DNA of 64,000 nt from an uncultured Verrucomicrobiota bacterium (GCA_903838675.1 CAILZI010000178.1:21296-85295); one strand, 5' to 3'; positions 47,371-62,855 are shown, numbered from the stretch's first letter. The notes: generated by a model from the sequence alone, not told the origin. Made by a program: numbers and translations.

Positions 47371-48336
47371 CTACTTTTCGACTTTCGCCTGCTTCACAAA
47401 CTTCACTATCACGCCTTTCACCGTCGCAGCCATTTTTAGTCCGCGTTCCTTTCCCATGACGCAAATCGCCGTGTCCAGAGCATCGCTGGTGGTGCAGTCG
47501 GGGGCGATCACCGAGCAAGCGATCCTATCCGTCAGCCCCAGTCCGGTCTGGGGAGAGACGATGTGCGAGTATCGCGTTCCTTCAATTTCGGTGAACTGGT
47601 AGAGATCCCCCGATGTGGATACGCCGCAGTTGTGCAGCCGCACGGTTGTCAAGTCTTCCTCGGGCGCCGCACCAGCAAACTGCCGCAGCTTAATCTCCCA
47701 CGCATCCTCCCCGGGCGGAGGATCGCCGATGGCAATGTCGCCACCCGCCATCATCAGGGCACGGGTGAGGCCGTGTTCCTGTAAAACTTTCAGGCCGGCA
47801 TCGGCAGCGTAACCTTTGGCAATGCCGCCGAGATCGAGCAGCATGCCGGGCTTTAGAAGCGTGATGGTTTGCGCTTTGTCATCCAGCCGAACAGCTCTCC
47901 AGTCGGTGGCAGCGAGCGCCTGCTGCAACCTGTCGGCAGGTGGCAGTTTGTGGGTGCGCTTGGTGCGCCGCCACAGGTGCGTGAGATTGCCGCACGTGAT
48001 GTCGAGCGCTCCTTCAGTAAGGCGTGCGAATTCGAGAGCGCGAGACACGAGCGTGAAGAGATCGTCGCTGGCTTTGAAGGGTTTGTCCGGGCCGGAATTG
48101 CAGAGCTGCATGAGCTCGCTGTTGGGCTCGTAATCGGAGAAAACGGCGTTGAGAGCGGCGATGCGTTTGAAGGCGGCGGCGGCTGCTGCTTCGGCTTGTG
48201 CTTGGGTTTCCGCATGCAGAGATATGCGGAATGTGGTGGCCATCAGCGGCGCGGAAAAATCAAAACGCTCAAGAGCCTGCGCGGGGAGGGCGCAAAGGAG
48301 CAGGCATAGGGAGAAAATGAAAGACACGGAACACAC
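47371..48336 (-). CDS. FAD:protein FMN transferase (ApbE family)
   Basis: MATTFRISLHAET, DLGGIAKGYAAD, GGDIAIGDPPPG; start uncertain (possible GTG at 48336). Confidence 0.85.
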   Translation of the reverse strand: MCSVSFIFSLCLLLCALPAQALERFDFSAPLMATTFRISLHAETQAQAEAAAAAAFKRIAALNAVFSDYEPNSELMQLCNSGPDKPFKASDDLFTLVSRALEFARLTEGALDITCGNLTHLWRRTKRTHKLPPADRLQQALAATDWRAVRLDDKAQTITLLKPGMLLDLGGIAKGYAADAGLKVLQEHGLTRALMMAGGDIAIGDPPPGEDAWEIKLRQFAGAAPEEDLTTVRLHNCGVSTSGDLYQFTEIEGTRYSHIVSPQTGLGLTDRIACSVIAPDCTTSDALDTAICVMGKERGLKMAATVKGVIVKFVKQAKVEK

Positions 48337-48361
48337 GGCAGGAGAGTTATATCGACGAAAA

Positions 48362-48408
48362 ACCCGGCCTTGGAAAGGCCTGGGTATGCAGGGGGGGCGA
48401 GAGCCCCC
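48362..48408 (-). terminator. Hairpin-rich region between roadblock gene and apbE
   Basis: Near-palindrome acccggccttggaaaggcctgggt and GGGGGC-GAGA-GCCCCC. Confidence 0.45.
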
Positions 48409-48416
48409 TTTCCTAG

Positions 48417-48821
48417 TTACCAAGCCGGTTCTGCGTGCAGCGCGTCGGAGAGGTTGAGTGCGGGCAGAGAAACGGGGCGGATCCGGGTCGTGATGGGTTT
48501 GGCCAGCGTCTGACATGCAGTGCGGATGGCGGGGATGGCGTCAGTGCTTTGGCAGCGCACGAGCAGTACCCGGCGCTGCGGCAGGCCGTGAAGATAAATG
48601 ACACCCCCATCATGCTGCTGGACGATTTCCAAACAATCGCCGCTGCCAGAGCGACGGCCAAGCTCAGAGGCGGCAGAGAGCGTGGCATGCGCCAGCACCA
48701 GGATGGCGGCAGTGGGTGGCTCAGCATCGCCAGCGCAGTCGAGCAAACGGCCTGCGTCATCGGCGATGGCTATCTGAATGACATCAGGAATGGAGGCGAG
48801 GACGGTGAGTTCCATGGTCAA
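48417..48821 (-). CDS. Roadblock/LC7-like (MglB-like) protein
   Basis: TVLASIPDVIQIAIADDAGRLLDCAGDAEP...; small alpha/beta protein next to an MglA GTPase. Confidence 0.65.
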   Translation of the reverse strand: MTMELTVLASIPDVIQIAIADDAGRLLDCAGDAEPPTAAILVLAHATLSAASELGRRSGSGDCLEIVQQHDGGVIYLHGLPQRRVLLVRCQSTDAIPAIRTACQTLAKPITTRIRPVSLPALNLSDALHAEPAW

Positions 48822-48835
48822 AGCACAAAACAGGG

Positions 48836-49489
48836 TTACGCTGCGAGAGCGTGGGTAGGAAGCTCGTGAGGTGTGGCTGAGGTGCTGTCAGACGGCGCGG
48901 TACGGAGGCGGAACTGATGCAGCACGGCCTGGGAGATGGCATTGAGCGTGGCCAGCACGTTGCGACCGCTGCGTGCGTCGGATTCAAAACTGAGAAAGGG
49001 TGTCGGACGGTTGTTGAACAGGTATTCGAGGTATTCGACCGGCGCAGCATTGGGCAGGTCGCGCTTGTTGTATTGAATGACGACGGGCAGGCGGTCGAGC
49101 GAGCTGTCATTCATGCGCAGGTTGGCATCGAGGCTTTGCAAGGACTGCAGGTTGTCGCGCTGGCGGTCCATTTGTGAATCAGCCACAAAGACAACACCGT
49201 CAGCCTGCTTCAGCACGAGCTGCAGTGTGGCATTGTAGGTGATCTGTCCAGGGACAGTGTAGAGATGAAAGGTTGTCTTGTAACCTGGAAGCGCATCAGC
49301 CTCGACGGCGAGGAAATCGAAGAACAGAGTGCGATCTTGAGCGGTCGAGAGTGATACGAGGTCGCTGCAGCCGTTGGGATCGAGCTTGGCGTGAATCTGC
49401 TGGAGATTCGACGTTTTCCCGCAGAGCGGGGTGCCGCAATAGACGATTTTGAAGCTGACGGTGTGGTCGTCGTGATTGATGCTGGGCAT
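48836..49489 (-). CDS. MglA-type small Ras-like GTPase
   Basis: KIVYCGTPLCGKTSNLQQIHA P-loop, FHLYTVPGQITYNATLQLVLKQADGVVFVADSQ, QYNKRDLP. Confidence 0.9.
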   Translation of the reverse strand: MPSINHDDHTVSFKIVYCGTPLCGKTSNLQQIHAKLDPNGCSDLVSLSTAQDRTLFFDFLAVEADALPGYKTTFHLYTVPGQITYNATLQLVLKQADGVVFVADSQMDRQRDNLQSLQSLDANLRMNDSSLDRLPVVIQYNKRDLPNAAPVEYLEYLFNNRPTPFLSFESDARSGRNVLATLNAISQAVLHQFRLRTAPSDSTSATPHELPTHALAA

Positions 49490-49552
49490 GGCAGAGAAAA
49501 ATGACGAATAAAAGAGAATGAATGCCGCAGCCTGTCGCAGAATGCCGGGCTT

Positions 49553-52500
49553 TTAGCCCAGCATGCGGGCAAGTTCGCGGGCGATGAGAGTGATCTTGTC
49601 GCGCATGCCGGTGGAGGGTTCGTCATCGTGCAACACGCCGATGATGGAGTCTCCTGGAAAGCAAAACGTCAGCAAACGACCGCCAGCATTGAGTGTGAAA
49701 GTTTCCGCGCCTTCAATGCCAATGAGCGGAGCCAGACCGCGCAACTGACGGGCGATGTCTGGTGCCTGGCGCTGGAATTCCACAGCATCCGTCTTGGAAG
49801 AATCCGCATGGCTGAGCACGTGTGAGCCATGCAGGCAGACGCATGCGCTGAGACCCTGCTGCAGGGCCAGAAGTTCGACGACTCGTGGCGCTGAGAGCTT
49901 CTCCTCGGTGCCCAGCAGGGCGCGCAGCAGGAGCTGATCTGTCTGAGTGTCGAGCGGGGAAAGGCCGAGAAAGGAATGTTTCACAGCCGCCATTTTGGCT
50001 GGAGCCGCTGAAGGCGTTGCCTGAAGTGCGGGCGCAGCCGGAACGGGCTTGGGTTCTGGCCTGGCCTGGGGAGTCACTGGCTCAGAAAACAGCGGCACGG
50101 TCGCAGCCTGCGTGCTGAACAATCCACGAGAGGCAGGCTGCGGAGCGGGGGGCGCTGGTGTGGAGAAGGACGGAATTTCTTCCAAGGCTGGAGCAAACGA
50201 AGGGGTGGGCTGAAACGGGGAAAGAGCTGGTGTCGGAGTGGCAAACAAGCTGGTAGCTGGTTTGGTTTCAGGCGCTGGCGTGAAAGCGGAGACAGGTTGC
50301 TGGGGTGTGGTGGGAACTTGCCCGAGCAATTGGGCACTGTTAAAACCTGATTCCGCAGATGCTTTGGCTGCCAGTGGTCCTGTGGAAGAGGAGGCAAAAG
50401 GATCGAATGGCTTGGCGGTTCCTGGGTGTGTTGAATTTGGAGGGGGTGCCGTTTGGGCCAGAGAGGCTGCCTGCGAGGCACCGAACGACTGAAATGCTCC
50501 GATGAGAGGTTGCAGAGGTTTAGAGGGAGACGCAGTCGTAGGCTGAGCGGCGGGGAAGAGTGCCGGTGAAACTGGAGGAGGTGCAGTTTCCGCCGGAGGA
50601 GAGGGAGGGGAAAACGCAAATTGAGCGGGACCGCTGGCAGCCTGAGCGGAACCAAAGGCCGAGACAGGTGCAGAGGCCGGAGATGGCTGGCTTTGCGTAA
50701 ATGGAGCCAAAGCCGCTCCGAACATCGGCGGTGATTCTGCAGGGGCTGGAGCAAAAGAAGCAGCGAACATGGGCTGCGAATTCTGTGTTGGCTGCTGCGG
50801 AGGATTGGGTTGAACTGCCAGGCGAGCGGGTAGCGTAGTGGGGCTGGGACTGCCAAAGGATGCCGGAGTCGCGGGAACTGCCGACGTGTTGGTGAGAGAA
50901 TGAAACACTTCGTTCTGCGGCAGCTTGATCTTGAAATCACGCTTGGCGTTGGTGAGTGTGTTGCGGAAGCCGAGATCGGAAATGCCATCGATAAGCATTC
51001 CGAGTTCGAGTACGATGTTGCCGGAGGAAATCTGCTCGTTCAAAGCGCTGGCCTGAACGCTGGTTGTGATCCATGCCGGCAGGGTGGTCGGATTGAAACC
51101 AAGTTCTTCGACACTGTAACCGCCTAACACCGCAGCGAATCCTAACTTGGCCATGCCGCCCGATGTAGAAGAAGCATTGCCTGGTGCCGCTGATTGTGGT
51201 TGTGAAGCAAAAGCATTCGGAGCTGGCGATTCTACCAGTGGTGCAGCATCTTTCATTGCTGCGACGAAGGGAGAACCGAAGGGCATTGCAGGTGCAGCTG
51301 CCATGTCCGAAGGCGTGGATGCTCTTTGCAGCGCTGGCGGAGTGAATAAAGTGGAAATAGATGCCTGAGGCTGGCTTGCAGCTGGAGCGGATGAAGCCCA
51401 ATTTTCCGGCGGTGCAGGGGAGAAGGGAGATCCGGGTGATGTGGCCGGCGGAGCTGCTACGGGCTGTTGTGACATGCCGAAAGGTGAGCCACCTTGGCCT
51501 GATCCAAATGAGAAAGGCGAACCAGGTATTGGTGGGGGCTCAACCGCTGCAGGCTGTTGTGCCATGCCGAAGGGGGAGCCACTTGAGCCTGCTCCCAATG
51601 AAAAAGGCGATTCAGATAATGTGCTGGGCGCAGCGGCTGCAGGCTGTTGAGACATGCCGAAAGGCGAGGCTCCTGGACTAGCACCTAATGAGAAGGGCGA
51701 TCCGGGCGAAGGTGCTAGCGAAGTGGCTTCGGGCTGTTGAGACATGCCGAAGGGGGAGCCACTTGGAGTAGCACCAAATGAAAAGGGAGATCCTGGCGAA
51801 GGTGCTGGAGCAGCCGCTTCGGGCTGTTGAGACATGCCGAAGGGGGAGCCACTTGGAGTAGCACCAAATGAAAAGGGAGATCCTGGCGAAGGTGCTGGAG
51901 CAGCCGCAGCAGGTTGTTGTGACATGCCGAAAGGCGAGGCGCCTGGACTAGCACCTAACGAGAAGGGAGATCCTGGTGCAGGAGCAACTGCAGCAGGCTG
52001 TTGAGACATGCCGAAGGGCGAACCACTTGGACTTACTCCCAATGAGAAAGGCGACGGGGGAGGCTGCTGCACCGCAGGATTGGAGGCCAGCGGAGCCATT
52101 TGGAACGGTGAGCCGACAGGGGCGGGCGTGGGCGTTGCGGGCTGAGCGAACGAAAATGGGGATGGCGAAGCCGCAGAGGCAGGTGCAGGCAGAGCACCAT
52201 TCCCTTCACGGGCCTGAGCAATCAAACCCGGAAGCTTCGCCGCCGGTAGTGCCACAAGACGAGGATCCTGGGGGGAAATAGGCACTTGGAAAAGCGCTGG
52301 GCAGACACGGTACAGTTCAAAAACTGGCAAGGCCGCCTGACCGCTGCGCAGTGCGTTTTCCAGCAGGGCGGGCGGCAAGGAAAGAGGCTGTTCCGCAGGC
52401 AGTGCGCCCATGCGCACAACCTCAGCAGGCAGTTGGTTGATTACATCGCCTACAGTAAGAGGCGAATTTGTGGGAGTTGCTCCAATGATGCTGAACGGCG

Positions 52501-52762
52501 ACATTCCTGAGGCTGAATTGATCGGCGGTGCCGCAATTGGCTCATTGCCAGCCGTTTTGAAAAGTGGATTGCCCCCGATTTGAAAGGGGGAAGCACCAGC
52601 TGGAAACTGTAGAGGAGGAGACGCTTGCATGGAAGAGAGGCTATTTATGCCTGGGCCAACCATTCTCTGAGGATGTGCTCCCGCGAAGTTTTGCTGAGCA
52701 TCTAGCCCCGGTTCGTTAGAACCGGCTCCACGCTGGAACAAACTTCGGAACGAAAAACTCAT
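49553..52762 (-). CDS. 1069-aa low-complexity Pro/Ala/Ser/Phe/Gln-rich protein with C-terminal roadblock-like domain
   Basis: Single long ORF; seven SPFGM(S/A)QQP units; C-terminus LQQGLSACVCLHGSHVLSHADSSKTDAVEFQRQAPDIARQLRGL...GRLLTFCFPGDSIIGVLHDD. Confidence 0.8.
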   Translation of the reverse strand: MSFSFRSLFQRGAGSNEPGLDAQQNFAGAHPQRMVGPGINSLSSMQASPPLQFPAGASPFQIGGNPLFKTAGNEPIAAPPINSASGMSPFSIIGATPTNSPLTVGDVINQLPAEVVRMGALPAEQPLSLPPALLENALRSGQAALPVFELYRVCPALFQVPISPQDPRLVALPAAKLPGLIAQAREGNGALPAPASAASPSPFSFAQPATPTPAPVGSPFQMAPLASNPAVQQPPPSPFSLGVSPSGSPFGMSQQPAAVAPAPGSPFSLGASPGASPFGMSQQPAAAAPAPSPGSPFSFGATPSGSPFGMSQQPEAAAPAPSPGSPFSFGATPSGSPFGMSQQPEATSLAPSPGSPFSLGASPGASPFGMSQQPAAAAPSTLSESPFSLGAGSSGSPFGMAQQPAAVEPPPIPGSPFSFGSGQGGSPFGMSQQPVAAPPATSPGSPFSPAPPENWASSAPAASQPQASISTLFTPPALQRASTPSDMAAAPAMPFGSPFVAAMKDAAPLVESPAPNAFASQPQSAAPGNASSTSGGMAKLGFAAVLGGYSVEELGFNPTTLPAWITTSVQASALNEQISSGNIVLELGMLIDGISDLGFRNTLTNAKRDFKIKLPQNEVFHSLTNTSAVPATPASFGSPSPTTLPARLAVQPNPPQQPTQNSQPMFAASFAPAPAESPPMFGAALAPFTQSQPSPASAPVSAFGSAQAASGPAQFAFSPPSPPAETAPPPVSPALFPAAQPTTASPSKPLQPLIGAFQSFGASQAASLAQTAPPPNSTHPGTAKPFDPFASSSTGPLAAKASAESGFNSAQLLGQVPTTPQQPVSAFTPAPETKPATSLFATPTPALSPFQPTPSFAPALEEIPSFSTPAPPAPQPASRGLFSTQAATVPLFSEPVTPQARPEPKPVPAAPALQATPSAAPAKMAAVKHSFLGLSPLDTQTDQLLLRALLGTEEKLSAPRVVELLALQQGLSACVCLHGSHVLSHADSSKTDAVEFQRQAPDIARQLRGLAPLIGIEGAETFTLNAGGRLLTFCFPGDSIIGVLHDDEPSTGMRDKITLIARELARMLG
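51420..52055 (-). repeat. In-gene tandem repeat, ~84-90 bp units, about 7 copies
   Basis: Repeated ...gacatgccgaa(g/a)gg(g/c)gag... blocks; 51726-51817 and 51816-51907 identical with 90-bp offset. Confidence 0.9.
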
Positions 52763-62503: not shown

Positions 62504-62855
62504 GGGGGCGTACTGGTTTCGACGGGTAGCCTTAGTTCGGAGCTGCATGCCGAGGATGATTCGTTGGCCTCGTTAAACACCGGATCAAAAACACAAATGC
62601 AAACTCTAACGAGCTAGCACTCGCAGCTTAAGCCCTGCGACATCCTTCAGGCAATGTCTGGTAGCCTGAACGATGCCACTACCAGGCTGGTTTGTTGGCC
62701 GGGCGACCGGGTCACAAACGAGATCAAACAGGACGCTGGGTGAAGAGTAGGCTGTCTCAAGCCGCCTCCCACCGAGACCAAAGATGAGACTGAGCATGGA
62801 GACGCTACGGGCAACGGTTATTCGGACAGGGGTTCAACTCCCCTCGCCTCCACCA
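62504..62855 (+). ncRNA. ssrA: tmRNA
   Basis: GGGGGCG...CGCCTCCACCA tRNA-like acceptor pairing, TACTGGTTTCGACGGG 5' motif, GGGGTTCAACTCCCC T arm, tag ORF ANSNELALAA*. Confidence 0.95.

Follow-up and report, generated by a model that had tools for sequence, protein, structure and literature searches.

A 1069-aa scaffold protein, encoded directly upstream of an MglA-type GTPase and an MglB-type roadblock protein, appears to be a dedicated and nearly obligate partner of these two proteins in the Verrucomicrobiota phylum and to couple the MglA/MglB switch to an envelope machine; this is the explanation that, on balance and with modest confidence, we favour. The genes lie in the window, i.e. the whole stretch of 64,000 nucleotides that was analysed, which comes from a Verrucomicrobiota bacterium, in all likelihood a member of the Verrucomicrobiaceae. 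Three consecutive minus-strand ORFs at 52762-48417, located where the earlier note had placed them, form a compact operon in the order scaffold (49553-52762), mglA (48836-49489) and mglB (48417-48815), with gaps of 63 bp between scaffold and mglA and 20 bp between mglA and mglB. The small gene, which encodes 132 aa when counted from ATG, probably starts at this ATG (48815) rather than at a TTG (48821). A terminator-like hairpin (48380-48366, minus strand, a consensus match only) closes the operon 3' of the last gene, and such hairpins are no commoner in this region than in shuffled sequences. Around the operon, a tRNA-Glu gene lies upstream on the opposite strand, the next gene after the operon encodes ApbE (FAD:protein FMN transferase; 47371-48516) at a position where some relatives have exbB, and a tmRNA gene is found at 62504-62855. 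The start predicted for the ApbE gene falls within the mglB-type gene and has probably been placed too far upstream.

The scaffold consists of an N-terminal motif, a first folded domain (D1), an F-rich linker, a second folded domain (D2), another F-rich linker and a C-terminal roadblock domain. D1 (aa 100-180; 52223-52465, minus strand) and D2 (aa 537-621; 50900-51154, minus strand) align as homologues (hhalign E 4e-6), and an AF2 model of D1 built from the merged D1 and D2 alignment has a pLDDT of 91.7 and a pTM of 0.80. Foldseek found no fold match for this model in the PDB (best E 6.6), D2 has no Pfam relative and yielded only chance matches in a PDB profile search, and the whole scaffold protein has no Pfam or NCBIfam match. 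D1 and D2 are thus two copies of a new domain type of ∼82 aa with no Pfam or PDB relative, hereafter the D domain. The last 139 aa of the scaffold (aa 931-1069; 49556-49972, minus strand) are modelled with the alpha-beta-beta-alpha-beta-beta-beta-alpha order of the roadblock fold (AF2 pLDDT 89.4, pTM 0.83). The best Foldseek matches of this model are MglB structures (6izw/6hjm; E 3e-5, probability 1.00, ∼15% identity in the structural match), and the MglC structure 7ct3 ranks behind them (E 2.1e-3). The Pfam Robl_LC7 gathering score is not reached by this region (0 families for the window domain), and only 4 of 39 members match the model at E values up to 1; its assignment to the Roadblock/LC7 superfamily therefore rests on the predicted fold and not on a sequence model. 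The protein begins with a conserved hydrophobic/basic stretch, MSFSFRSLFQ (52733-52762, minus strand), and M(S/A)FSFR(N/S)LF-type starts are shared by most of the order, while other orders have different short hydrophobic/basic starts. An N-terminal membrane anchor is only suggested, because the hydrophobic moment expected of an amphipathic helix is mostly not above that of shuffled sequences.

The two smaller proteins are of known kinds. By sequence, the 217-aa Ras-like GTPase is firmly placed in the MglA family: it matches Myxococcus xanthus MglA (5ymx) with an E value of 6.4e-52 over residues 2-194 (phmmer), it contains the motifs by which the earlier note had recognized it (CGTPLCGKTSN, TVPGQ and NKRD), and the P-loop, R53, Q82 and the NKRD motif are kept in a 35-member MglA alignment, being degenerate only in L099. 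The small protein, which the same note had called roadblock-like, can be classed as an MglB-type roadblock protein with a predicted GAP role because (i) its family profile matches the MglB structures of M. xanthus and Thermus thermophilus (E about 3e-24), (ii) Robl_LC7 is matched by all 28 aligned family members and (iii) in the Myxococcus locus L173, the family HMM picks up the roadblock gene that neighbours MglA (E 2e-27). Taken singly, the small protein gives a sub-threshold match to Robl_LC7 (E 0.0016) and only a chance match in the PDB (phmmer), and a Robl_LC7 search of its own genome found nothing. Single-sequence models thus miss the roadblocks of both the small protein and the scaffold C-terminus, and profiles or folds are needed to find the roadblock domains that had been expected in both partners of the GTPase. 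Within the genus, the MglB-type C-terminus carries a conserved motif like LNLSDALHA. In one genus (L093, L095-L097), the MglB-type proteins have long C-terminal extensions and reach about 400-570 aa overall.

We then compared the content and order of the module among relatives. The co-occurrence sample comprises 142 genomes of the order drawn from a larger group; many are MAGs and relatives are not independent, so that the counts are descriptive. Of these genomes, 84 have a strong MglA match, 90 have the scaffold C-terminus and 76 have MglB; all three are found together in 72. The scaffold accompanies MglA in 83 of the 84 genomes, the exception being G075, whose mglA is located at the end of a contig; it is present in all 76 genomes with MglB, and none of the 142 contains MglB without it. 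The remaining combinations are scaffold and MglA with MglB undetected (11 genomes, including the single-contig G049 and G056), scaffold and MglB without intact MglA (four genomes) and scaffold alone (three genomes). For example, mglA is missing from L201 (2969-3100) and L202 (3011-3177), where no more than 131 and 166 bp, respectively, separate scaffold and MglB, and it is broken in L206 and degenerate in L099, both of which keep scaffold and MglB. The scaffold is therefore the most constant part of the module. Its gene lies directly upstream of mglA in 40 of 40 loci of the order (picked from genomes with MglA hits) and upstream of mglA in 19 of 20 loci sampled class-wide, the remaining one being near a contig end; at least two of these 20 contigs apparently repeat named loci (L258 = L117 and L259 = L111). 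Scaffolds also occur in further orders and classes of the Verrucomicrobiota, those of the other classes being divergently transcribed beside mglA-mglB (L211-L213). The large ORF is thus conserved next to MglA in relatives, as the reading in the earlier note demanded. The proposal in that note that it encodes a disordered scaffold for the GTPase holds in part: the protein is mostly disordered, but it also contains the roadblock, two D domains and a conserved N-terminus.

Several variants point to D domain plus roadblock as the core of the protein, with adjustable linkers: (i) L273 (3488-4150) encodes a minimal 221-aa D-plus-roadblock protein with almost no linker; (ii) in L271 (1990-4056), the D part and the roadblock are separate neighbouring genes; and (iii) in Candidatus Hebobacteria (L142, 5006-5968), the gene directly upstream of mglA encodes a protein that is hydrophobic in its N-terminal half and carries a C-terminal D domain. 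A different arrangement is seen in L140 (BRC1) and L175 (Zixibacteria), where a small roadblock gene is followed by an mglA with a long C-terminal extension and then by mglB; the scaffold roadblock gave no significant match to the standalone upstream roadblock of L140.

In the scaffold encoded in the window, F makes up 6.8% of the linkers and is almost their sole aromatic residue (Y 0, W 0.1), there is little charge, and SPF and FG occur far above the expectation from composition-preserving shuffles (21 vs 1.7 and 15 vs 3.8, respectively). Most of this excess comes from one 90-bp (30-aa) tandem array of ∼7 copies (51447-52054, minus strand; TRF score 517) with units like SPFSFGASPSGSPFGMSQQPAAAAPAPSPG. 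The same array has 2.8 copies in the near relative L061, whose MglA is 99% identical, and in other relatives there are either no repeats or unrelated ones that contain F, the latter having expanded in L062 and L099. The dense SPFSFG/SPFGM motifs described in the earlier note are therefore real and strongly enriched, but they belong to a lineage-specific minisatellite, and most members lack an FG array. F-richness extends further: the mean F content is 4.6% across 54 scaffolds (a few of which are duplicate contigs), 29 of the 54, all of them from the order or from its labelled relatives, show PF enrichment (z>2), and low-complexity windows contain 5.5-7.8% F in scaffolds of the same family vs 2.5% in controls from the same-genus genome G106, whose ORFs were called mechanically and are in some cases spurious. 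Linkers of the Limisphaerales and Chthoniobacterales show neither an SPF array nor PF enrichment. A minor linker motif, GFNSAQLLG (50321-50347, minus strand), is found in the window protein, in several members of the genus and in L081. Since PF and F enrichment recur in many scaffolds and the array varies in copy number, the F-richness of the linkers is a widespread trait and the FG array a local one.

A possible explanation, to which we give somewhat less than even credence, is that the repeats arise by neutral slippage of a minisatellite within a flexible spacer and that the folded parts alone matter. The wide variation in linker length and motif content between members, the differences in copy number between close relatives and the near-absence of a linker in L273 all fit such drift, which is less easily reconciled with F and PF enrichment that recurs across many genera despite sequence turnover.

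Alternatively, the modelled scaffold roadblock could itself be the regulator of MglA (a GAP, co-GAP or exchange factor) that replaces or assists MglB, the rest of the protein serving as a tether. MglB structures are the nearest folds to this domain, and the 11 genomes with scaffold and MglA in which MglB is undetected would be explained; against this, its sequence is far from MglB and MglB co-occurs with scaffold and MglA in 72 genomes, and we regard such a role as rather unlikely.

Gene neighbourhoods suggest a possible output of the module. Many members of the order have further genes in the operon after this point: one of the MotA/TolQ/ExbB type (PF01618, E about 1e-26), one for ExbD (PF02472) and one for a protein with a single TM. 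In PDB profile searches, the best matches of the last protein are weak ones to TonB C-terminal domains (E 0.2-0.8, the lowest being 0.23). The exbB gene directly follows mglB (or mglA), mostly together with exbD and the TonB-like gene, in L064, L070, L071, L076, L081, L082, L085, L087-L090, L092, L093, L098, L099 and others. In the genome of the window, this trio is unlinked to the operon (G000:C220:5602-7573; L254 5602-7573) and orthologous, its ExbB sharing 79% identity with the copy in the operon of G072. Among other orders, exbB-exbD was found adjacent in few loci.

MglA polarises type IV pili in Thermus and Myxococcus, and the module could do the same here instead of acting on an Exb/Tol-type machine. 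PilT is indeed present in all genomes with the module, but every genome sampled from the order that lacks the module has it as well; PilT was therefore rejected as a functional discriminator because it is universal in the order. The gene linkage that is observed is to exbB-exbD, and we consider a pilus function doubtful.

The weakest alternative is the earlier reading of the FG/SPF-rich protein as an FG-nucleoporin-like condensate at the cell pole, which the F-dominated, low-charge linkers, their SPF, FG and PF enrichment, their F content above that of controls and the unrelated F-containing repeats of L062 and L099 would favour, but which we judge improbable because the dense array arose by recent tandem expansion and is not conserved. 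The scaffolds do not contain a conserved FG-repeat domain as FG nucleoporins do, the array being lineage-specific and many members being without FG enrichment, and FG-nucleoporin-like condensation, should it occur, would not be a family trait.

From the computed folds, homology, gene linkage and co-occurrence we infer how a scaffold that couples the MglA/MglB switch to an envelope machine might work. In this favoured explanation, (i) the C-terminal roadblock would dock on MglB in the manner of Myxococcus MglC, on MglA-GTP, or on both; (ii) the two D domains and the short N-terminus would bind other partners, probably at the inner membrane; (iii) the long F-rich linkers would supply reach and multivalent weak contacts; and (iv) the nucleotide state of MglA would decide where or whether the scaffold assembly forms. 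The output in many relatives would probably be the ExbB-ExbD-TonB-like proton-driven envelope machine of the same operon, with a logic like that of MglA-AglRQS in Myxococcus. On the basis of gene content, the persistence of scaffold and MglB after loss of MglA would fit a direct scaffold-MglB contact, and docking on MglB cannot be the only role of the scaffold because 11 genomes keep scaffold and MglA with MglB undetected. Several observations count against the favoured explanation: adjacency indicates partnership and not mechanism, the scaffold stands alone in three genomes, exbB-exbD is not adjacent in the species of the window and the TonB-like call is weak. More tentatively, and as a rather unlikely extension, the module may constitute a distinct Verrucomicrobiota polarity system, in which MglA/MglB controls the assembly of an F-sticker scaffold with two D domains and a built-in roadblock, and this scaffold positions the ExbBD-TonB-like proton-driven envelope machine.

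The nearest known counterpart is the MglA/MglB-MglC-RomR system of M. xanthus (PMC10329633, PMC7949163, PMC12719032), which likewise comprises MglA, MglB, a second very divergent roadblock protein and a partner with a disordered region. There, RomR, which has the disordered region, binds the roadblock protein MglC; MglC in turn contacts MglB, and this second contact is broken by MglA-GTP (PMC10329633, PMC7949163). By contrast, the second roadblock described here is fused with the disordered part and two new domains in one chain, no receiver domain was found in the scaffold system, and the gene order is scaffold-mglA-mglB. Homologues of the Thermus thermophilus MglA/MglB pair are also present here. 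The TolQR-like AglRQS motor of M. xanthus is part of the gliding machinery linked to MglA (PMC3169522) and resembles the present neighbourhoods in that TolQ/ExbB- and TolR/ExbD-type stator genes are linked to MglA; it has two TolR-type genes, whereas one exbD and a TonB-like gene are found here, and the link in our data is a genetic one.

More distant likenesses concern single features. Ragulator/LAMTOR-Rag complexes are also roadblock platforms that carry a small GTPase, and they are among the structural matches to the scaffold roadblock, but they are eukaryotic, consist of several small subunits and have no D domains. FG nucleoporins resemble the linkers in their low charge, in relying chiefly on F as sticker residue and in having motifs of the FG and SPFG-like kind; the repeats here are lineage-specific, and the likeness is one of motifs and composition rather than of demonstrated homology. 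The CvnB/CvnD proteins of Streptomyces conservons (PMC4316618) likewise bring a roadblock protein and a small GTPase together in one cluster, but conservons include a histidine kinase and no D-domain scaffold. Verrucomicrobia are listed among the MglA-bearing lineages by Wuichet and Sogaard-Andersen (PMC4316618), in whose text term searches revealed no such scaffold. A description of the scaffold was likewise not found in searches of open-access papers on MglA and Verrucomicrobia. In brief, the GTPase and MglB are of known kinds, and neither the D domain nor the D-D-roadblock scaffold was found in Pfam, NCBIfam, the PDB or the open-access papers searched.

If the favoured explanation is true, it would define a missing constant partner of MglA for a whole phylum, and it would describe a roadblock-GTPase platform in which a second roadblock is built into a disordered scaffold. 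Genomes that have lost MglA or lack a detectable MglB but retain the scaffold would serve as natural tests of which contacts matter. The explanation would also tie the switch genetically to a stator-type motor, so that polarity and envelope energisation in the Verrucomicrobiota would become testable.
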